A program made the translations under genes and the position numbers. Below are positions 15,388 through 26,987 of a stretch of DNA of 33,640 nt, piece after piece (the stretch's first letter is position 1; each line of letters starts with the position of its first letter). Location: positions 1 through 33,640 of the forward strand of contig JAFTIH010000047.1 in the NCBI GenBank assembly GCA_017456985.1, read 5' to 3'. Under the pieces are notes generated by a model. That model made no database searches. It saw nothing but the letters and a program-made list of their open reading frames with translations, and had not been told where the DNA came from. This DNA comes from Clostridia bacterium. GTDB lineage: Bacteria; Bacillota; Clostridia; Oscillospirales; CAG-272.

Positions 15388-18300
15388 ATGAAAAACAAGC
15401 TATTCACCATTTTGCTTGCCATCCTCGTGGTCGTATCCGTCATCCCCGTATCGACGGTACAGGCGGCAGAGATCCCCACCGAAGGACTTTACGTCGCGAT
15501 GCACGACTCCTACGGTGACACCTGGAACGGCAACGCACTTTCCATCCTCACGGATACGGAATATCTTGGCGACACGACCGTGGGGGAGAGCTACGAGGGC
15601 TCCTTTGCGGACGCCGCCGTCACCGAGGCGGATGGATTGCACGTATTCTGGACGGCGGGCGAGTACGCCTACGAATGCTCCTTCGAGATCTACCTTGACG
15701 GCACAGAGATCTTTGCGGCAGATACCACGGCGTGCGAAGGCTTTGTCGACGGTGCGTGTATTTTCTCAACGGACACCGCCCCCGCCACCGAGATCACCGT
15801 CAGCTTTGACGCGGGCGGCGGCACGGGCGAAATGGAGCCCGTAAGCGCCCTCTCGGGCTGGGTCAAGCTCCCTCTCCGCGGCGATTTCACGCCCCCCGAG
15901 GGCAAGGTCTTCGCGGCGTGGTCGCTAAATGAGGGCGGCGCGCCCCTCGCGAGCGGCTTTGCCAAGCTCTCCGCAAGCGCCACCGTTTACGCGCTTTATA
16001 AGGACGTCGCTCCCGTTTACGTAGGAGCGCTTGCGCTTTCGGATGGCGACTATTTTGATCCCGAGACGGGCAGCATCACAAAGAGCGCCCCTGCGGGCGG
16101 CTATCTGCATTACGCGGACGGCGTGCTGACGCTCAAGGACTTTAAGTACGTTGTCGAGGAGGAGACCGTCGAAGTTTTCGATGCGCCTGCGTTTCTCTGC
16201 ACGACGCGGGATCTGACGTTGGTGCTCACGGGCGAAAACCGGATCCAACTGCCGGGCGAGGGCGCGGTCCTTTACGCCTACGAGGGCTCCCTCACCGTCA
16301 CGGGCGACGGCACCCTGACGACCACGGCGGAAACCGCTTTTTCCGTGGCGGATGACTTTACGCTGCTAAGCGGCACGATCGTTCTGTCGTACGGTCTTGA
16401 GGGCATCTTCGCAGGCGGCGACGTCACGCTCTCGGGCGGTGCGCTCTTAACGGAGCAGATGATCTACAACTTTACCGTTTCGGCAGAGGGAAGCATTTCC
16501 GTCACGGGCGGAAGGGCAGTTCTTCGGGCGTCGTACGGCTTAACGGCACAGGAAAACGTTACCATTTCGGGCGGTGCGCTCCACTTGCACGCCATGACTG
16601 CCATTCGCACAGGAAGAAGCATCGCGCTGTCGGGCGGTAGCGTCATTATCGAAAACGCTTTGCAGGGTCTGATCGCAGGCGAGAACGTTGATATTTCGGG
16701 CGAAGCGCTGTTTCTCTCCATTTCGTCCGAGGACGTCGCCATCCTTTTGGCGCCTTACTTTGAGGACGAGAGCACCGAGGAGAACACGATCACCATTGCC
16801 GAAGGGCTTACCGTGCTTCCCGAAGGCGTGACTGCCAAGAACGAGCTTGGGCTCCTCGTGGATGCGCAAAACACGATCGTAGCGGACCTCATCGTCGGCG
16901 AGATGGCTCCCATCTTTGACGAGGACACTTACGTGTGGCACGAAGGCGCTCACTGGCACCTTTGCGTGGACGCGAGCTGTCCGCTGGATCCTGCGAACCC
17001 CAACCATCGGCTCTTCGAGGGCTCGGGCTACGGTGAGCACACCGAGACCGACGGAGTTTGCTCCGTTTGTATGCCCGAGGATCTCCTTACGCGCGACCAC
17101 GTCAGCTTTGGCGAGCATCTCCTTTACGAGGGAACCTATCTGCTCGGGGAGGGCGTTTGGTCATCGCACGCTCCCACGCGAGGCGGTTACGCATACCTCG
17201 ACGACGGCACGCTGACGCTTCACGACTTCACCTTATCCACCTACAGCATAGAGCACATGCTCGACCCCGAGGCGTATCCCGATATTTCAAGCGACCGCAC
17301 GCTCGTGCTTGCGCCGCAAGGCATAACGCTCCGTCTTGTAGGCAAAAACGGTCTTTACAATACGAGCGCAGGCTTCGGCATTCTCGTTCTCGGTGACCTT
17401 ACCGTCGAGGGCGACGGCACGCTGCACCTCCCGGGGGAGGACGGCATTTTCGTGCAGAGCGGTGACGCGATCCTCTCGGGCGGCACGCTTGGTATCCATT
17501 CCTACGTAGACGGCATCAGCGTTTACGACGGCGATTTCCTTATGACGGACGGCGTGCTCCGCATCGATAGCGGTGACGGCGTGTACGTTAATCGCGGTGA
17601 CGTCACCGTCAAGGGCGGCGTGCTGGAGCTTGCGGTGATGAATGACGGTATTGACGTCACAAACGGTAACGTCACCGTGACGGGCGGCTCCTTCAAGATC
17701 AAGGCGGGCGACAACGGCTTCGAGTTAGATGCCGACGAAGAGCTCGCAAATTACGCGGAACTCGCGGCACTCACCGTGTCGGGCGGCTCCTTCGAGATCC
17801 GGGCAGAGGACGACGGCTTTGACGCCGAGGGCGCTCTGCGCATCACGGGCGGCTCCTTCTTCATCGACGCGATAAACGACGCCATCGACGGTCGCACCGT
17901 GCATCTGCTTGGCGGCAGCTTCACCCTGGACGCGGCGTGCTGCTACGTGATGTCAAACGAGGGTGTCACGCTCGGATGCGATCTCACACTCTCGCCCGAC
18001 GGTGCATACGAGCGCCGCTATGGTAACCCCGAGATGGGCGAGGACCCCGACGTCCTTCACGTCATCGATGTTCTTGACGAGGACCCCGTGACGCTTTCTT
18101 TGAAGGCGGGCGACACCTTCCGCCACGTCGATGCCGACAAGGACCACGTTTGCGACGTCTGCTCGCTCGCGTTCGACGAGTGCGTTGACACGGACAGCGA
18201 TCACCTTTGCAATCTGTGCGGAGAGAAGGTCTCCGACTGCGCGGACGCGGATAAAAATCACGTCTGCGACGTCTGCGGCGAGAAGGCATCCGACTGCGCG

Positions 18301-18516
18301 GACGCGGATAAAAACCACGCGTGTGACACCTGCGGCGAGAAGCTCTCCGACTGCGCAGACGCAGACGGCGACGGGTTATGCGACACCTGCGGCGCCGACC
18401 TCTCGGAGGGCGCGGATCTGCTCTGGCTGTGGATCACGCTCCCCTCGGTCGCGGTCGCGGGCGGCGGCGGATTTGCCCTGTATTGGTTCGTTTTGCGCAA
18501 GCGGTTCCTCGCATAA
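15388..18516 (+). CDS. Surface-anchored beta-helix (Cthe_2159-like) protein with Cys-rich repeats
   Basis: 1042 residues. A signal peptide at about 1-27 ends VSTVQAAE. A Listeria-Bacteroides type repeat (VSFDAGGGTGEMEPVS) lies near 131-205. Two long beta-helix sections follow, built from short turns such as GDVTLSGG, GNVTVTGGSFKIKAGDNGF and ALRITGGSFFIDAINDAIDG, as in the pectate-lyase-like, carbohydrate-binding Cthe_2159 family. Residues about 915-1005 hold five units of the type DADKNHVCDVCGEKxSDC. A hydrophobic helix (about 1011-1034) and LRKRFLA end the chain, a membrane anchor with no LPXTG. The AAGGAG ribosome site is clear. The protein is probably exposed on the cell and binds glycans; no catalytic residues were identified. 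Confidence 0.88.
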   Translation: MKNKLFTILLAILVVVSVIPVSTVQAAEIPTEGLYVAMHDSYGDTWNGNALSILTDTEYLGDTTVGESYEGSFADAAVTEADGLHVFWTAGEYAYECSFEIYLDGTEIFAADTTACEGFVDGACIFSTDTAPATEITVSFDAGGGTGEMEPVSALSGWVKLPLRGDFTPPEGKVFAAWSLNEGGAPLASGFAKLSASATVYALYKDVAPVYVGALALSDGDYFDPETGSITKSAPAGGYLHYADGVLTLKDFKYVVEEETVEVFDAPAFLCTTRDLTLVLTGENRIQLPGEGAVLYAYEGSLTVTGDGTLTTTAETAFSVADDFTLLSGTIVLSYGLEGIFAGGDVTLSGGALLTEQMIYNFTVSAEGSISVTGGRAVLRASYGLTAQENVTISGGALHLHAMTAIRTGRSIALSGGSVIIENALQGLIAGENVDISGEALFLSISSEDVAILLAPYFEDESTEENTITIAEGLTVLPEGVTAKNELGLLVDAQNTIVADLIVGEMAPIFDEDTYVWHEGAHWHLCVDASCPLDPANPNHRLFEGSGYGEHTETDGVCSVCMPEDLLTRDHVSFGEHLLYEGTYLLGEGVWSSHAPTRGGYAYLDDGTLTLHDFTLSTYSIEHMLDPEAYPDISSDRTLVLAPQGITLRLVGKNGLYNTSAGFGILVLGDLTVEGDGTLHLPGEDGIFVQSGDAILSGGTLGIHSYVDGISVYDGDFLMTDGVLRIDSGDGVYVNRGDVTVKGGVLELAVMNDGIDVTNGNVTVTGGSFKIKAGDNGFELDADEELANYAELAALTVSGGSFEIRAEDDGFDAEGALRITGGSFFIDAINDAIDGRTVHLLGGSFTLDAACCYVMSNEGVTLGCDLTLSPDGAYERRYGNPEMGEDPDVLHVIDVLDEDPVTLSLKAGDTFRHVDADKDHVCDVCSLAFDECVDTDSDHLCNLCGEKVSDCADADKNHVCDVCGEKASDCADADKNHACDTCGEKLSDCADADGDGLCDTCGADLSEGADLLWLWITLPSVAVAGGGGFALYWFVLRKRFLA
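18129..18410 (+). repeat. Coding repeat encoding CxxC units
   Basis: Five units of 18-20 codons at the end of the surface protein gene. The third and fourth are nearly identical at DNA level around GACTGCGCGGACGCGGATAA, which invites slippage and length variation. Each unit carries an Asp-rich calcium-loop-like DxDxDH part and a CxxC pair. Confidence 0.8.
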
Positions 18517-18735: not shown

Positions 18736-20115
18736 ATGGAAAAGCCCATTTCTCTTTTGGTAGATTTTGATCGGACGACGGGCGCCGTCAAGCCTATGCA
18801 CGGTATCGGTCAGCCACCCTTGGCGGGATTTTCGTGTGAGAAGTTCCGCTATCTTTCGCGCGCGGGCATCCCCTTTTCCCGTCTGCACGACGTGGGCGGA
18901 GCGATGGGCGGCGGTCTTTACGTGGATATTCCCAACCTCTTCCGCGATTTTTCGGCGGATGAAAACGACCCCGCGTCCTACGACTTCGCCTTTACCGATA
19001 GAATTATGGAAGAGCTCGTCAGGGCGGGATGCGAGCCGTATTTCCGCCTGGGTGTGACGATCGAAAACCTGCACCTCGTCAAGGCGTACCGCATTTTCCC
19101 GCCCGCCGACTACGACAAGTGGGCGCGCGTGTGCGAGCACGTGGTGCGCCACTACAACGAGGGATGGGCAAACGGCTTCCATATGGGCATCCGTTACTTT
19201 GAGATCTGGAACGAGCCCGACGACTGCACCGAGCCGCACCTTGCGATGATGTGGCACGGCACGCCCGAGGAATATTACCGCCTGTACGCCGTCACTGCGC
19301 GACACTTAAAGGCGTGCTTCGGAGATACGATCAAGGTGGGCGGCTACGGACACTGCGGCGTTTACGAGTTTGAAAAGGACGAGAGCCTTGACGGCGAGAT
19401 CGGGGAAGAAACGTATATTTACGACTACACCATCTCCTTTATGCACGGCTTTTTCCGCTATATCCGCGAGGCGGGCGCACCGCTCGACTTTTTCTCCTGG
19501 CACGTATATGACAACTGCCACTCGTCAACGCGCGAGGATTTCCGCGTGATCGCCCGCCACGCCGACTACGTCCGAAGGATCCTCGACCGCTACGGCTACA
19601 CGGATGCCGAGCATCACTTGAACGAATGGAACCTGCACACCGACCGCGAGCACCGCGACGCACCCGTCGGCGCAGCAAAGTCCCTCGCCTTTATGACGAT
19701 GATGCAAAGGACGAGCACCGACTTAATGTGCTTTTACGACGGCGGCATCGGCTACAGCCCCTACCGCGCGCTCATCAATCCCGATACGGGCTATCCCTAC
19801 CGCACCTATTACGCCTTTATGATGTTCGGCACGCTCTACCGCCTTGGCAAGACGGTCGCGAGCACGTGCGAGGACGGACGGCTCTTTTCTCTCGCGGCAA
19901 GGCGGGGGCGTCAGGCGGCACTCGTGCTTGCCAACCCCTCGGGCGAGGAGCTTTCGGTATCGCTTTCGCTTACCGGTTTTTGCGCGAGCGCGTGCGAGGT
20001 GCTTCGCATCGACGAGGAGAACCGCTACACCTGCACGGGCGAGGACCTTGCGGACGGCACGCTCACGCTCCCCCCCTTCGGATGCGCGGAGATCCGCTTG
20101 TACGATTTAAAGTAA
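18736..20115 (+). CDS. GH39-like glycoside hydrolase (beta-xylosidase type)
   Basis: 459 residues, clan GH-A (beta/alpha)8 barrel. YFEIWNEPDDC carries the acid/base Glu160, and HHLNEWNLH carries the candidate nucleophile Glu297; the N-E-W pattern and the HGIGQPPLAG start fit family 39. A small beta-sandwich covers about 380-459 (LFSLAARRGRQAALVLANPS, GEELSVSLSLTGF). No signal peptide, so it would act on imported xylo-oligosaccharides or other small glycosides in the cytoplasm. It has its own promoter between terminators and is therefore monocistronic. Activity could also be alpha-L-iduronidase-like or another retaining specificity; xylosidase is the default family guess. Confidence 0.88.
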   Translation: MEKPISLLVDFDRTTGAVKPMHGIGQPPLAGFSCEKFRYLSRAGIPFSRLHDVGGAMGGGLYVDIPNLFRDFSADENDPASYDFAFTDRIMEELVRAGCEPYFRLGVTIENLHLVKAYRIFPPADYDKWARVCEHVVRHYNEGWANGFHMGIRYFEIWNEPDDCTEPHLAMMWHGTPEEYYRLYAVTARHLKACFGDTIKVGGYGHCGVYEFEKDESLDGEIGEETYIYDYTISFMHGFFRYIREAGAPLDFFSWHVYDNCHSSTREDFRVIARHADYVRRILDRYGYTDAEHHLNEWNLHTDREHRDAPVGAAKSLAFMTMMQRTSTDLMCFYDGGIGYSPYRALINPDTGYPYRTYYAFMMFGTLYRLGKTVASTCEDGRLFSLAARRGRQAALVLANPSGEELSVSLSLTGFCASACEVLRIDEENRYTCTGEDLADGTLTLPPFGCAEIRLYDLK

Positions 20116-20164: not shown

Positions 20165-20193
20165 TTGACAGGACAACATTCTTATGTTATAAT
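20165..20193 (+). promoter_or_regulatory. Perfect consensus promoter of the YbjN gene
   Basis: TTGACA (20165-20170), 17-bp spacer, TATAAT (20188-20193) with extended TGT. It is among the strongest promoter matches in the window and predicts high expression. A small dyad GTAAG gcaa CTTAC follows in the leader (20202-20215). Confidence 0.95.
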
Positions 20194-20246: not shown

Positions 20247-20651
20247 ATGCTTGCATGCGCAGAACTCTTTACCAAGTTTCTTGAGTCCAAGGGGCTCAAC
20301 TTCAACGTTCGCGAGGATTCGGACGGCGACGTATTCGTTATGTTCCCCTACGACGGCAAGATCACCCGTTGCATTTTCAGCGGTGAGGAAGGCAAATATC
20401 TCTCCCTCTACCTCGTTTACGAGAACGTTCCCGAGGACAAGATGGCTGACGCGATCTTCCTTGCAAACGAGCTGAACACCAAGTGGAAGTGGGTCAAGTT
20501 CTACGTGGACGGCGACCGCGACCTGATGCTTCAGGACGACGCGATCCTTTCCGTTGACACGGCGGCTGACGAGGCGTTTGAGCTTCTTCTCCGTATGCTC
20601 AACATCGGTAAGGACTCCAAGCCCTCCATTATGAAGGCTCTTTACGCATAA
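20247..20651 (+). CDS. YbjN domain protein
   Basis: 134 residues with the YbjN fold pattern (alpha-beta-beta-beta-alpha... similar to type III secretion chaperones): an N-terminal helix LFTKFLESKGLNFNV, strands DVFVMFPYDGKITRCIF and KYLSLYLVYENVPE, a helix with AIFLANELNTKWKWVKFYVD and a C-terminal helix DEAFELLLRMLN. YbjN proteins are cytosolic and small and have been linked to stress and multi-copy suppression, but their biochemistry is unclear. CGGAGG precedes the ATG. The promoter is near-perfect and the codon choice is biased, so this is probably an abundant protein. It sits directly upstream of the Clp/FtsH fusion gene but is separated from it by a terminator. Confidence 0.85.
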   Translation: MLACAELFTKFLESKGLNFNVREDSDGDVFVMFPYDGKITRCIFSGEEGKYLSLYLVYENVPEDKMADAIFLANELNTKWKWVKFYVDGDRDLMLQDDAILSVDTAADEAFELLLRMLNIGKDSKPSIMKALYA

Positions 20652-20664
20652 CGCGTAGCCCCCT

Positions 20665-20724
20665 AACGGCTCATCGGGAGAGCGGTTCGCCCTGCGCGCC
20701 GTTCTGACCTATGAGCCGTTTTTT
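20665..20724 (+). terminator. Long structured terminator after YbjN
   Basis: Outer stem AACGGCTCAT (20665-20674) / ATGAGCCGTT (20711-20720) and inner stem AGAGCGG (20679-20685) / CCGTTCT (20699-20705, one G-U), with TTTTTT ending at 20724. An internal loop CGGG / GACCT separates the stems. Confidence 0.82.
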
Positions 20725-20812: not shown

Positions 20813-23800
20813 ATGAAGTTTATCAAGATTTCCATCTTTCTTCGCTCTCCCGAGCTGGTATGGTCCTACCGAAAGACGCACGGCGGAGAGTTCTGGGCGG
20901 ATTTCGTTGCGCGCCTTTGTGACGCACTCTCTCCCGCCACCCCCTTTGAAAAAAAGAACGGCAACGTCCAGCACGCCTTTTATCTTTGTGCGAATGCGGA
21001 TGCCGATCATTATAAGGAGCTGCTCGGCACTTTGCTTGGGGAGCTTTTGAACGAGGACGAGAAAAAGCTCGTGACCGCCTCGGTCTCCTCGCCCGAGGAA
21101 AGCGAGATCGCCTCGCTTCGCGACGCCTTGCCCGAGGAGGAACGCACGCACGCGCTCTTTGCGTCGCTCGGTACCGACGCACCCGCCAAGGAAGCTCCCA
21201 AGAAGCCAAAAACGAGAAAAAAGGCGAAAGCGGACGAAGCGCCCAAAGCCGAGGGGGAAACGGGCAAGACGCCCGCCGCGACGGATAACGCCGCCGCCCT
21301 TGACGCGGACGAAAAGCGCCCCGACGCACCCAAGGCGGGCGGGGAGAAGGGGGAAGAGGACAAGGCGCCCCTTACCCTTGCCGAGCACACCGAGCGCCTG
21401 CGCGCGCTCAAATCGGGACTTCTCTCCCGCGTGCGCGGACAGCGTCACGCCATCGACACGCTGGTGGGCGCCTTCTTTGAGTGCGAGCTGTTTGCCGCCC
21501 AGAACGAAAAGCGCAAGGGTCCGCTTGCGACCTTCCTCTTCACGGGTCCCTCGGGTGTGGGTAAGACCTTTCTCGCGGAGCTGTGCGGAGAATATCTTGA
21601 CAGACCTATGCTCGTCGTGGATATGAGTGAATATTCCGACAACCTTTCCAATAACAAGTTCAACGGCGACCACGGCGAAACGGCGGTCGTCACGGGCTTC
21701 GTGCGCAAGCACCCCAACGGCATTATCGTCTTTGACGAGGTGGAGAAGGCGCACATCAACACCATTCACCTGTTCTTACAGATCCTTGACGCGGGGCGTT
21801 TGATGGACCACCACATCAAAAAAGAGGTGTCCTTCCGCGACAACATCGTCATCCTCACCACCAACGCGGGCAAGAGCTTATACGAGGACGCGACGGTGTG
21901 CGACCTTTCCCAAACGCCAAAGAGCGTCATCCTCGACGCACTGCGCACCGACATCAACCCCCAGACGCGCGAGCCCTTCTTCCCCGAGTGCATTACCACC
22001 CGTATGGCAAACGGTCACGTCATTCTCTTTAACCATCTTGAGCCCTTCGCCTTGATGGAGATCGTGCGCGACGAGCTCGCCCTTCAAGCAAGGCTCTTTG
22101 AAAAAACGACGGGTATTAAGGTCGAATACGACGAAAAGATGCTCTCGGCGCTCGTGCTTTATCACGGCGGCGGCGTTGCCGACGCGCGCACGCTGCGCGG
22201 TCTTGCCAGAAGCATCTTCGTGCGCGAGCTCGAGGAGCTCGTGATGCAGCTTTACGAAAAGGACCCTGCACGCGTGGGCGCGCTCAAAAAGATCAACGTT
22301 TGCATCGACACCGCGGACAGCGCCGAGATCGGCAGCCTGTTCGTCAGCGTGGATACGATGTACGTATCCGTCTTTGCCGAGGGCGTGGGCGAGGCGTTCA
22401 ACGCAGAGGGCAAGCGCCGCAACACCGTCTTTACGAGCGAGTGCGATCCCGACCGCTTCAAGCGCGCCGTGCGCGGCGTGACGGACTACGTGCTGATCGA
22501 CCCGCTGTGCGGCGCCGCCGAGCACGACCGCATCCCAAACGACGTTGAGGATATGGACTCGGACGGTATGCGGATGTTCTACTACGTGCGCGAGTTCTGT
22601 CCCGAGATCCCCGTTTACGTGCTGGATCGCACCCCGGACGAGATGCGCTCCTTTGATACCCTGCTCGCGAGAGGTGCGAAGGGCATCATCAAGGCAGACC
22701 CCGAGAACGCCGAGGCGTTTGGCGTGGCGCTCGAAGCGCTTGCGTTCAGCGCCCTGATCAATAACGCCGTGTATGCGCTGGGTCGCTCGGGCAAGATGCT
22801 CACCTACAACTGCGCACAATACCTGTCGGACGGCGACGACATCATTTTGTCCTTTGAAAAGCTCCAAGTCAAGAGCGCACCCAGCGCCGCCGACGGCTCG
22901 ATGATGGTCCGTAAGGGCGAGGGCGGGGTCCGCTTTGCCGATCTCGTGGGCTGCCGCGGCGCCAAGGAAGCGCTCGGCGAATACTGCCGCGCACTCGACA
23001 AGCCCCGCGAGTGGGCGCTTTCGGGCAAGAGAATGCCCAAGGGCGTCCTGCTTTACGGTCCTCCCGGTACGGGTAAAACGATGCTTGCCAAGGCGATGGC
23101 AAACGAGTGCGGCGCCGCCTTCTTCCCCGTGAGCGCCACCTCCTTCTTCGGCTCGCTCGTGGGCGAAACGGAAAAGAACATCCGCGACGTCTTCAAGCGC
23201 GCGCGCCGCTATGCGCCCGCCATCATCTTCGTCGATGAGGTTGACGCCATCGGACGCCGCAGAAGCGGCTCGTCCAGCACTGCGCACAACGAGGACGCGC
23301 TCAACACCTTCCTCGCGGAGATGGACGGCTTCGCCACCGACGAGCGCCGCCCCGTGTTCATCCTCGCCGCCACCAACTACGAAATCGAGGGCGAGGGGGG
23401 CAGAGTGCTGGACGCCGCGTTCGTGCGCCGCTTTGACAGCAAGATCCTCATTCCTCTGCCCGACACGGACGACCGCTACGAGCTGCTTGCAATGGCGCTT
23501 CGCCGCCACGGCATCCACTTTGGCGAGGACCACGAGAAGGTCCTTCGCAATATGGCGGCACGCACGGGCGGTATGAGCAACGCCGACCTTGAAATGATGA
23601 CCGCGCAATTCGTCCGCGGTCTTGGCGACGGGGAGCCCGACGCCGCTACTTACCTTGACGCGGTGGATGCCTTCCGCTTTGGCGAGGTCAACAAGATGGA
23701 CCCCGACCACCTGCGCCAGACCGCCGCACACGAGGCGGGTCACGCGCTCGTTTGCCGCCTTTGCGGTGTGACGCCCTCCTTCTTGACGGTGGTGTCGCGC

Positions 23801-24199
23801 GGCTCCTTCGGCGGCTTTATGGAAAGCGCGGGCGAAAACAAGAGCACTTACACCTACGACGACCTTATGGACCGCGTCTGCCGCTCGCTTGCGGGCAGAG
23901 CCGCAGAGGTTTTGCTGTACGGTGAAAAGGCGGGCATCAACACGGGGGCATCCTCGGACATCGAGCACGCCCGCTACTACGTCCGCGCTTGCCTTGGAAA
24001 TTACGCGATGGGCGAAAAGCTCTACTCGAAATTCACCCCGGAGGAGGCAGAGGAGCTGATGAAGGCGCAATACGAGCGCACCGAAAAGATGCTCGCCCTT
24101 CACCGCGACGCGCTGGAGCATCTGACCGACCTGCTTGCCGAAAAGAAGAGCCTCGACCAGACCGCGATGGAAAAATTCTTCGCCGCCGAGGGCGTGTAA
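20813..24199 (+). CDS. Fusion of Clp-type AAA+, receiver-like domain and FtsH-type AAA+ with M41 zinc protease
   Basis: 1128 residues in one uninterrupted frame. Residues 1-115 are an unknown domain; about 118-185 a low-complexity Lys/Ala/Pro/Glu linker. About 195-510 resemble the second ATPase domain of ClpA/ClpB: Walker A GPSGVGKT at 245-252, Walker B IIVFDEVEKAH (Glu309), LQILDAGRLMD, VILTTNAG and a small domain with ADARTLRGLARSI. About 535-650 look receiver-like: DYVLIDPLCG (Asp563), PEIPVYVLD, GAKGIIKAD (Lys627). About 715-930 are an FtsH/classic AAA+ domain: GPPGTGKT at 749-756, FVDEVDAIG (Glu809). The M41 protease follows: HEAGH at 973-977 and TGASSDIEHA with Asp1049 as third zinc ligand. 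There is no membrane segment, unlike true FtsH. GAGG precedes the ATG. Confidence 0.9.
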   Translation: MKFIKISIFLRSPELVWSYRKTHGGEFWADFVARLCDALSPATPFEKKNGNVQHAFYLCANADADHYKELLGTLLGELLNEDEKKLVTASVSSPEESEIASLRDALPEEERTHALFASLGTDAPAKEAPKKPKTRKKAKADEAPKAEGETGKTPAATDNAAALDADEKRPDAPKAGGEKGEEDKAPLTLAEHTERLRALKSGLLSRVRGQRHAIDTLVGAFFECELFAAQNEKRKGPLATFLFTGPSGVGKTFLAELCGEYLDRPMLVVDMSEYSDNLSNNKFNGDHGETAVVTGFVRKHPNGIIVFDEVEKAHINTIHLFLQILDAGRLMDHHIKKEVSFRDNIVILTTNAGKSLYEDATVCDLSQTPKSVILDALRTDINPQTREPFFPECITTRMANGHVILFNHLEPFALMEIVRDELALQARLFEKTTGIKVEYDEKMLSALVLYHGGGVADARTLRGLARSIFVRELEELVMQLYEKDPARVGALKKINVCIDTADSAEIGSLFVSVDTMYVSVFAEGVGEAFNAEGKRRNTVFTSECDPDRFKRAVRGVTDYVLIDPLCGAAEHDRIPNDVEDMDSDGMRMFYYVREFCPEIPVYVLDRTPDEMRSFDTLLARGAKGIIKADPENAEAFGVALEALAFSALINNAVYALGRSGKMLTYNCAQYLSDGDDIILSFEKLQVKSAPSAADGSMMVRKGEGGVRFADLVGCRGAKEALGEYCRALDKPREWALSGKRMPKGVLLYGPPGTGKTMLAKAMANECGAAFFPVSATSFFGSLVGETEKNIRDVFKRARRYAPAIIFVDEVDAIGRRRSGSSSTAHNEDALNTFLAEMDGFATDERRPVFILAATNYEIEGEGGRVLDAAFVRRFDSKILIPLPDTDDRYELLAMALRRHGIHFGEDHEKVLRNMAARTGGMSNADLEMMTAQFVRGLGDGEPDAATYLDAVDAFRFGEVNKMDPDHLRQTAAHEAGHALVCRLCGVTPSFLTVVSRGSFGGFMESAGENKSTYTYDDLMDRVCRSLAGRAAEVLLYGEKAGINTGASSDIEHARYYVRACLGNYAMGEKLYSKFTPEEAEELMKAQYERTEKMLALHRDALEHLTDLLAEKKSLDQTAMEKFFAAEGV

Positions 24200-24997: not shown

Positions 24998-25026
24998 TTG
25001 CAAAATCGGGCGTTTTGTGTTATACT
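24998..25026 (+). promoter_or_regulatory. Promoter of the isomerase-kinase fusion gene
   Basis: TTGCAA (24998-25003), 17-bp spacer, TATACT (25021-25026) with extended TGT. Confidence 0.87.
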
Positions 25027-25109
25027 GTACTTGGAAAAATATCTTCCGCGCGCCAAAAGAAAAAGATACGCACCGCGCGCGCGACGAAATACAAAAAGGA
25101 GGCGTTTTT

Positions 25110-26987
25110 ATGCACGCCGTCAAGCTAACGCCCGCCACCAAGGACTATCTTTGGGGAGGCAGAAAACTAAAAGAAAAATACGGCAAAGTGACCGAGATGG
25201 ACCCGCTTGCCGAGACCTGGGAGCTATCCTTCCACGAGGACGGGCAAACGCGCTTGCCCGACGGACGCACGCTTGCCGAGGGCTTGTCGCGCGAGGCGCT
25301 GGGCGCAAACGCCTGCCGCTTCGAGCGCTTCCCGATGCTCGTTAAATTCATCGACGCCGCAGGGGATCTTTCGGTGCAGGTGCATCCCTCGGACGCCTAC
25401 GCACTCGCACACGAGAATAGCTACGGCAAGACCGAGATGTGGGTGATCGTGGAGGCAGAGGAGGGTGCGGGGATCTACCTCGGCTTTGACCGCGACGTCA
25501 CGAAAGAGGAGCTTGAGGACGCCATCCAAAAAAACACCCTCTCCTCGCTCTTGCATTTTTATCCCGTGCGCGCGGGAGAGAGCTATTTCATCCCCGCAGG
25601 CACCATCCACGCCATCGGCAAGGGATGCTTGATCGCGGAGATCCAGCAAAACTCCAACCTCACCTACCGCGTTTACGACTGGGGACGCGTGGATAAAAAC
25701 GGAAAAAGCCGTCCGCTTCACATCGAGCAGGCAAAGGCAGTGACGGAATTATCGCGTTTTGTAAACAATTCTTTGCATATTGAAGGTTCTGACGGAGAAC
25801 TGATCGGACTTTGCCGCTACTTCACCGTCAAAAAGCATACCGTTTCGGGAGAAAAGACGGTTTCGTCCGACCCCGCATCCTTCCGTGCCATCCTCTGCAT
25901 TGCGGGGGAAGGGCAGATCGACGGGACGCCGCTCTTGGCGGGGGACAGCTATTTTCTTCCCGCAGGGGCGTGCTCTGCCCGTTTAACGGGTGAGCTGACC
26001 GTCTTGACTGCCGAGGTGCGTCGCCTTTTCGTCGGCATCGACCTTGGCGGCACCTTCATCAAGGGCGGCATCGTGGATGATCTTGGTAACGTACTGCTCG
26101 ACGACAAGGTACCCACGGGCGTTGCGGAGGGTCCCGAGGCGATCGCGCGCAACATTTCTACGCTGGTAAAGACGCTTCTTTCCCGCGCCTCGCTTTCCCC
26201 CTCGGACGTCGAAGGGATCGGGCTTGGCGCCCCGGGCATCATTGACAGCGATGCGGGCACCGTGCTCCGCTCGGGCAACCTCGGACTGTTCTCGTTCCCG
26301 CTCGGTGTGCGCGTACAGGAGCAAACGGGGCTTCCCGTCAAAATGACCAACGACGCGAACGCCGCGACGCTGGGCGAGGTCCGCTTCGGCGGCGGCGCAG
26401 GGCTTCAAAACGTCGTTATGCTCACCCTCGGCACGGGCGTGGGCGGCGGTGTCGTAACGGACGGCAGGATCCTCGAGGGCAATCGCGGTGCGGGCGGTGA
26501 AATGGGTCACGTCACGCTCGTGATGGACGGCGAGGCGTGCGGCTGCGGCAGACGCGGATGCCTTGAAGCGTACGCCTCTGCGACGGCACTCATCCGTGAA
26601 ACGCGCCGCGCGATGACAGCGCACCCCGAAAGCGAAATGTGGCAGATTGCAAAAACGCTCGACGCGGTGGATGGCAAAACGGCGTTTGCCTGCCGTGAAA
26701 CGGACGAAGCGGCGCGCGCGGTCGTAGAAAACTATATCCGCCACCTTGGCGCGGGCATCGTCAGCTACGCAAACATCTTCCGTCCCGACGCCATCCTCAT
26801 CGGCGGGGGCATATCGGCAGAGGGCGACGCACTCATCCGCCCCCTGCAAAGGATCCTCGACGAAGAGATCTACGGCGGCACGCGCGGACCTGCGGTACGC
26901 GTTGCGGCGGCAACGCTCGGCAACCGCGCGGGGCTGGTCGGCGCCGCCGCGCTTTGGATGGTAGCGCGGTCACAGCCCGCGCAATGA
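25110..26987 (+). CDS. Mannose-6-phosphate isomerase fused to ROK sugar kinase
   Basis: 625 residues from ATG 25110, which follows AAAAGGAGGCG; an upstream TTG in frame lies at the promoter. Residues 1-305 are a short-type zinc mannose-6-phosphate isomerase: QVHPSD (Gln90, His92), KTEMW (Glu109) and IPAGTIHAIG (His167) form the zinc site. Residues 307-625 are a ROK kinase: GIDLGGTFIKGG at 309-320 for ATP phosphates, NDANAA with catalytic Asp415, GTGVGGG and the zinc motif CGCGRRGC at 477-484. The chain could phosphorylate mannose (or glucose) and isomerise mannose-6-phosphate to fructose-6-phosphate in one cytoplasmic enzyme. No stop or frameshift lies at the junction. The sugar preference of the kinase half is not certain; glucokinase is the common ROK activity. 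Confidence 0.93.
   Translation: MHAVKLTPATKDYLWGGRKLKEKYGKVTEMDPLAETWELSFHEDGQTRLPDGRTLAEGLSREALGANACRFERFPMLVKFIDAAGDLSVQVHPSDAYALAHENSYGKTEMWVIVEAEEGAGIYLGFDRDVTKEELEDAIQKNTLSSLLHFYPVRAGESYFIPAGTIHAIGKGCLIAEIQQNSNLTYRVYDWGRVDKNGKSRPLHIEQAKAVTELSRFVNNSLHIEGSDGELIGLCRYFTVKKHTVSGEKTVSSDPASFRAILCIAGEGQIDGTPLLAGDSYFLPAGACSARLTGELTVLTAEVRRLFVGIDLGGTFIKGGIVDDLGNVLLDDKVPTGVAEGPEAIARNISTLVKTLLSRASLSPSDVEGIGLGAPGIIDSDAGTVLRSGNLGLFSFPLGVRVQEQTGLPVKMTNDANAATLGEVRFGGGAGLQNVVMLTLGTGVGGGVVTDGRILEGNRGAGGEMGHVTLVMDGEACGCGRRGCLEAYASATALIRETRRAMTAHPESEMWQIAKTLDAVDGKTAFACRETDEAARAVVENYIRHLGAGIVSYANIFRPDAILIGGGISAEGDALIRPLQRILDEEIYGGTRGPAVRVAAATLGNRAGLVGAAALWMVARSQPAQ

Follow-up and report, generated by a model that had tools for sequence, protein, structure and literature searches.

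How might a bacterium that already encodes a separate FtsH and several Clp ATPases use a single polypeptide carrying two AAA+ rings of different types together with a metalloprotease? The question is raised by a gene (20813..24199, + strand) in a 33,640-nucleotide stretch of DNA from a Clostridia bacterium (GenBank assembly GCA_017456985.1, contig JAFTIH010000047.1), hereafter the window, which is the whole of contig C46 in the host assembly. A first-pass annotation, made from the letters alone, had described the product as a Clp-type AAA+ ring, a receiver-like domain, an FtsH-type AAA+ ring and an M41 zinc protease in one chain without a membrane anchor, and had proposed that the Clp-like ring unfolds substrates and hands them on. 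The domain order, intact catalytic motifs, a shortened pore loop, a gene pairing with ybjN, hairpins and promoter-like sites can all be read from the sequence. From these we propose, with middling confidence, that the protein is a soluble, self-contained, adaptor-fed cytosolic AAA+ metalloprotease for regulated protein breakdown, in which the Clp ring would be mainly regulatory.

Two AAA+ rings and an M41 domain in one chain

The gene begins with ATG and encodes 1128 amino acids, in which Pfam finds AAA_2 (residues 237-378, whole-protein E 1.4e-26), AAA (best at 745-882, E 9.2e-45) and Peptidase_M41 (963-1070, E 4.6e-19), in that order. Pfam, NCBIfam and a motif alignment delimit both a Clp-D2-type AAA+ ring with a shortened pore loop (residues 190-470; 21380..22222, +) and an FtsH-type AAA+ ring (residues 700-935; 22910..23617, +), and Pfam and the alignment delimit the M41 metalloprotease domain (residues 955-1128; 23675..24196, +). 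In NCBIfam, residues of about 190-467 align with the C-terminal ATPase part of the ClpA, ClpV and ClpB models. The two ATPase cores are complete and of different AAA+ types, as had been claimed, with GPSGVGKT and DEVEKAH in ring 1, and GPPGTGKT and DEVDAIG in ring 2. The M41 site is also full: HEAGH lies at 973-977, and the third zinc ligand, Asp1049, follows the second zinc His by 72 residues, exactly as in the genome's own FtsH. Calling ring 2 FtsH-type fits the sequence of AAA+ then M41, but this is not a standard FtsH, since the NCBIfam model TIGR01241 gives 264.9 bits over residues 698-1070, below its curated cut-off of 600, and the ring has RRFD in place of RPGRFD and Leu as its pore residue. 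By hydropathy, the sole predictor used, no transmembrane segment is found (maximum 19-residue mean 1.53 vs 2.85 in the genome's own FtsH), which agrees with the claim that a membrane anchor is missing; values of at least 1.6 occur in 2 of the 50 family loci (L173, 1.62; L160, 1.60). The host genome, that of a gut bacterium (1.8 Mb in 49 contigs, completeness 93.57%), also codes for a separate FtsH of 684 amino acids with membrane helices and for three Clp ATPases, so the two-ring protein is an addition to the standard set, which argues for an extra, special task.

The same domain order was searched across related genomes, and 49 further loci were found. With the window, and after removal of exact duplicates (L172 = L021, L181 = L023, L185 = L026), the family comprises 50 loci: 10 in group A, the window included, 36 in group B, among them one broken remnant, and 4 in the distant group C. 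Six other contigs from metagenome-assembled genomes (MAGs; L020-L025) match the window protein with best-segment identities of 57-65%, covering at least residues 1-1123, and a seventh (L026), which is cut, matches at 68%. Two copies of the family gene are each broken in two pieces (L186 3712-5483 and L025 7995-11308), the latter being split into two frames. Genome searches found matches in 13/147 relatives at E 1e-60, in 19/295 genomes of the family and 13/345 of the order at E 1e-120, and in 3/391 of the class and 3/398 of the phylum at E 1e-150; these sets overlap, and every one of them includes the window's own genome as a match. Trees built separately for the Clp ring and the FtsH-M41 part both recover group A as one clade with 100/100 support, from which it follows that the two parts moved together. 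The trees do not establish group B as a single clade (57/89 in the one, three changes in the other). Long branches carry L160 and the group C rows, and bootstrapping of the Clp-ring tree had not converged.

No Pfam or NCBIfam family and no PADLOC model spans the whole order, and no description of it was found in a literature search judged on titles and abstract beginnings, with subscription journals mostly outside the search; the earlier statement that no described family has this order therefore holds within these sources. As far as could be seen, the layout, the loop shortening and the partner genes are new, while the AAA+ protease as a kind is known. An origin as a phage or plasmid gene was considered and rejected, since no such record carries the whole protein: 80% coverage was reached by 0/40 matching phage records with the window protein as query and by 0/1814 plasmid records with the group B protein of L031, and among the 80 of 503 viral-contig loci listed the matches were partial only.

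Catalytic motifs, pore loops and flanking regions

Motifs were compared in 47 rows (8 from group A and 35 from group B among them), with L025, L026 and L186 left out as broken or cut. Walker A is present in 47/47 rows for ring 1 and 46/47 for ring 2, and the Walker B DE in 46/47 for each. All 46 rows that reach M41 (L159 is cut before it) have HExGH and the third-ligand Asp, as HEAGH in 44 and as HESGH in L168 and L175. Ring 1 keeps Arg397 and Arg459 without exception. RRFD replaces RPGRFD in ring 2 of 45/47 rows, the exceptions being L007 and L160, and the group A pore residue of this ring is Leu in six of eight rows, the window protein included, and Tyr in two. One member, L160 (7573-10458, -), has lost the ATPase motifs of ring 2 and has no Walker B DE in either ring, with HEAGH intact; it is perhaps an ATP-independent descendant of the family.

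The pore loop of ring 1 divides the two main groups. The genome's own three Clps carry PPGYVG, PPGYIG and PPGYLG here, and the longer loop of group B is aromatic in 35/35 rows (Tyr in 32, Phe or Trp in 3). All eight group A rows lack five residues of this longer loop and read FNGDHG or alike, with His at the aromatic position in seven rows and Tyr in L007. We infer that this would impair threading: because the loop is five residues shorter and has His for the aromatic residue, substrate threading by ring 1 is doubtful in the window protein, and with it the earlier idea that the Clp-like ring acts as an unfoldase handing substrate on.

Between the rings lies a receiver-like region (residues 505-645; 22325..22747, +) marked by weak profile matches and an invariant Asp563. 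Its 43-row profile matched 19 sequences in the PDB at E up to 10. Response-regulator or receiver proteins make up 16 of these (E 0.036-1.6), and the remaining three are designed proteins (best E 0.0095), two of them so labelled and the other, VAL88, presumably one. In the alignments shown, per-domain E values run from 0.07 to 1.4, and Asp563 falls on the receiver Asp. Pfam Response_reg matches 7/43 members (best E 0.0035), the window's own member not being among them; a decarboxylase wing domain matches just as many (7/43), and the other receiver residues (acidic, Thr/Ser and Lys partners) are by eye unconserved. The region may thus be called receiver-like only, a weakly supported label.

The N-terminal domain of group A (residues 1-110; 20813..21142, +; from an alignment of 9 loci) yielded no convincing relative. 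Kinship with YbjN or Clp_N was rejected for lack of a match (for Clp_N in the window protein, by Pfam at E 0.01), and so was annexin VI, the sole PDB match below E 0.001, whose 27-residue stretch (E 8.5e-5) was taken as a chance helix match. For group B, the N-terminus shows a weak likeness to the ClpA N domain (E 0.019), and Clp_N matches 2/25; a ClpA-type N domain was therefore not accepted.

The YbjN partner gene and other neighbors

Absent from the first-pass annotation, which did not have the neighbors of relatives in view, is a partner gene. A ybjN-like gene (134 amino acids; 20247..20651, +), proposed to encode an adaptor or chaperone, matches PF10722 at E 5.6e-13 (49.7 bits, gathering score 22) and is the genome's only match to that family at E 0.01; against TY-Chap1 it scores 17.3 bits, below the cut-off of 27. 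Such a gene lies directly upstream of the protease gene on the same strand in 9/9 group A loci whose upstream DNA is available (all but L026, which is cut), and 9/9 of the products match PF10722 at E up to 0.1. Close copies among the 147 relatives occur only in the window's genome and in one other (G090), beside the protease in both. YbjN is kin of peptide-binding chaperones (PMC9503650).

Upstream of ybjN in the window stands a promoter-like site, TTGACA-17-TATAAT (20165..20193, +), with 12/12 consensus matches, one of two promoter-like sites scanned in that region vs a shuffle mean of 1.0. Sites of at least 11/12 lie within 82 bases upstream of ybjN in 5/9 group A loci, and the other four have 8 or 9/12. 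Folding of the 161-base gap between ybjN and the protease gene gives a hairpin, with a T tract (20665..20724, +), with a z of -3.7 that is below 200/200 shuffles. Hairpins are found in 9/9 group A gaps (z -2.5 to -6.2), below all 200 shuffles in seven and matched or beaten by 6/200 in L023 and 3/200 in L184. A consensus scanner, which handles short loops only, did not list the window's hairpin, and Rfam has no match in the window at gathering score.

Group B neighbors were counted within 4.5 kb of the protease in 36 loci. YbjN-like genes are present in 17/36, as a single downstream gene or as an upstream tandem pair. CARF nuclease genes are present in 6/36 and RyR or TrkA/RyR-like genes in 14/36; 30/36 have a neighbor of at least one of these kinds, and two of the six loci without are contigs of 4.1 and 4.7 kb. 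Of the YbjN-like proteins tested, from 16 of the 17 loci, 19/21 match PF10722 at E up to 0.1. The pairing with YbjN thus recurs in two arrangements, that of group A and that of group B, where YbjN is in tandem or on the protease gene's opposite side. The PADLOC CARF4--CARF_PDDEXK models match each of the six CARF proteins, and PF02026 matches both small RyR proteins that were scanned (1e-35). Among the large proteins Pfam finds TrkA_N in 4/13 and RyR in 4/13, mostly weakly, so that the label TrkA/RyR-like rests mainly on likeness among those proteins themselves. Across 38 host genomes, 22/36 copies of the group B-type YbjN lie within 1.5 kb of a protease, as do 6/24 CARF places and 13/41 TrkA/RyR-like places; these are raw shares, and they lean upward because the models were built from adjacent genes. 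The counts also show that the partner genes live on their own. In three places (G057:C25, G065:C47, G921:C64) CARF nuclease and TrkA/RyR-like genes adjoin each other with no protease nearby.

The idea that the CARF neighbors are type III-A accessories was rejected, as 0/38 host genomes pass the cut-off for Csm1 (Cas10) in a search that left Cmr2 and other cyclases outside; the Csm1 model does match weakly in 22/38, across roughly its first 100 positions out of 753. Group A, window included, has no CARF or RyR neighbors, and the single TrkA/RyR-like gene of the window's genome lies on a different contig from the protease (G000:C42:36699-38483, +). Group C has no YbjN-like, RyR/TrkA-like or CARF neighbors; L158 (7482-7811, +) and L177 (7702-7995, +) share a small upstream gene, of about 100 amino acids, that takes YbjN's place.

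Other genes of the window include two just upstream of ybjN, for a 1042-amino-acid protein with a Cthe_2159 carbohydrate-binding match (15388-18516, +) and a glycosyl hydrolase 39-like protein (18736-20115, +), and the neighbor listing shows nothing like them next to the remaining group A loci. Downstream, 25017-26987 (+) encodes one chain that matches a mannose-6-phosphate isomerase at residues of about 36-331 and, after it, a ROK sugar kinase at 339-647.

Proposed working, rival explanations and known systems

In the working that we propose, six chains would form two ATPase rings, stacked above an M41 chamber; the substrate would be pulled by the FtsH-type ring and cut by the M41 disk below that ring. 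The Clp-type ring of group A may serve mainly as a regulatory and assembly ring carrying the N-terminal domain, because its gripping loop is shortened though its ATPase and subunit-contact motifs are kept. The degenerate receiver-like part between the rings could relay or gate their coupling, and the YbjN protein would bring or hold substrates. As ybjN appears to have its own promoter and the hairpin would limit read-through into the protease gene, YbjN is probably made in excess. Adaptors of AAA+ proteases, of the receiver type and others, are known, such as RssB with ClpXP (PMC7226468). Several observations weigh against parts of this proposal. L007 retains Tyr in its shortened loop, and ATPase motifs are lost in L160. 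In 4/147 genomes, none of them with a protease match, and in one further copy in G090, there are weaker relatives of the group A YbjN, 14/36 of the group B-type copies in host genomes lie more than 1.5 kb from the protease, and the profile link between YbjN of groups A and B has an hhalign probability of 8%. Because copies lie elsewhere and in genomes lacking a protease match, YbjN would also act without the protease.

The rival closest to the first-pass annotation makes the Clp-type ring an active unfoldase or disaggregase that threads substrates into the FtsH ring and protease under heat or other proteotoxic stress, as if ClpG and FtsH were fused. In its favor, ring 1 has complete Walker motifs and invariant arginines, the group B loop is aromatic throughout, ClpK or other AAA+ genes adjoin FtsH genes on plasmids in our scan of plasmid records, and ClpG and FtsH belong to a single module of the stress-tolerance island tLST (PMC8290217). 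The shortened loop of all eight group A rows speaks against it, however, as do the 9/10 group A loci without a nameable YbjN-independent stress neighbor and the window's own neighbors, which are metabolic or unassigned; we consider this rival possible but rather improbable. That the chain is an artefact, two genes joined by an assembler or a functionless fusion, could draw on the broken copies L025 and L186 and on L160, but we give it hardly any credence. Six other MAG contigs and many further genomes carry the same order near full length, with conserved active sites in many independent assemblies, so it is neither chance nor an assembler's join, and the genome's own ftsH and clp genes lie elsewhere and are merely 33-38% identical to the window protein over matched parts.

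CARF and RyR/TrkA-like proteins keep company in bacterial conflict systems, as comparative genomics has it, and the group B machine might then be a defense or conflict protease, the output arm of such sensors upon phage attack. The neighbor counts, the uniform CARF4--CARF_PDDEXK matches, the shares of these genes close to the protease and the patchy spread of the family across genomes point this way, and CalpL, a protease activated by cyclic tetra-adenylate, provides a precedent (PMC11417357). Set against this are the Csm1 result within its scope, the lack of CARF or RyR neighbors in group A, the sparse Pfam support for the large proteins and the absence of the whole protein from the phage and plasmid records searched; most CARF and TrkA/RyR-like copies also lie elsewhere in the genome, and models seeded with adjacent copies favor adjacency. 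The neighbors hint at a defense or stress role in group B, and the full version of this rival seems unlikely to us. In a broader form of our own proposal, these AAA+ metalloproteases with two rings in one chain and a dedicated YbjN adaptor would be a class of their own and new, gated in group B by signals from CARF and RyR/TrkA-like sensors as an immune or stress protease and fitted in group A with a non-threading regulatory Clp ring; we put it forward only tentatively, as possible but rather improbable.

Bacterial AAA+ proteases are of few well-known types. If true, a soluble M41 protease that combines a Clp-derived second ring with a receiver-like part inside the chain would be a new layout. 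Nature would here have tested the role left to a second ring with a shortened gripping loop. Work on the chaperone-like YbjN family has mostly dealt with orphan genes, and a fixed partner would make the family directly accessible; the CARF and RyR/TrkA-like neighbors of group B make a possible new immune or stress protease directly testable.

Among known systems, IetAS likewise joins an AAA+ motor to a protease, and IetA is the best PADLOC match of ring 2 (9.5e-39 over 718-935), but this match covers the ATPase only, and M41 is in the same chain here. IetS is the subtilisin-type partner of IetA; no subtilisin match (E 0.01) was found among twenty neighbor proteins in two scans of ten each. CalpL (SAVED-Lon) of type III CRISPR resembles group B alone, as a protease tied to nucleotide-sensor biology (PMC11417357), but it is Lon-type with a fused sensor, whereas here the protease is M41, the sensors are in neighboring genes and no host genome passes the Csm1 cut-off. 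RssB, too, is an atypical receiver, and its partner is an AAA+ protease (PMC7226468); the receiver-like part here, itself weakly supported, is inside the chain. Ring 1 aligns with the C-terminal ATPase of the Hsp100 proteins ClpA, ClpB and ClpC, and the group B N-terminus recalls the ClpA N domain, but the window protein differs from these in having a single Clp-type ring, no Clp_N match and none of the GY[VIL]G loop of its genome's own Clps. FtsH, typically laid out with N-terminal transmembrane helices, is the precedent for the C-terminal half (PMC9020784). FtsH and the mitochondrial m- and i-AAA proteases share the order of AAA+ then M41, HEAGH and, in the genome's own FtsH, the Asp spacing, and the window protein departs from FtsH by its low TIGR01241 score, its RRFD motif, the absence of N-terminal membrane helices by hydropathy and a second ring in front. 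The tLST island comes near in another way, since a Clp-type motor (ClpG/ClpK) and FtsH are coded there side by side (PMC8290217), but as two proteins, a two-ring ClpG and a membrane-bound FtsH, whereas here the motor and the protease form one chain.

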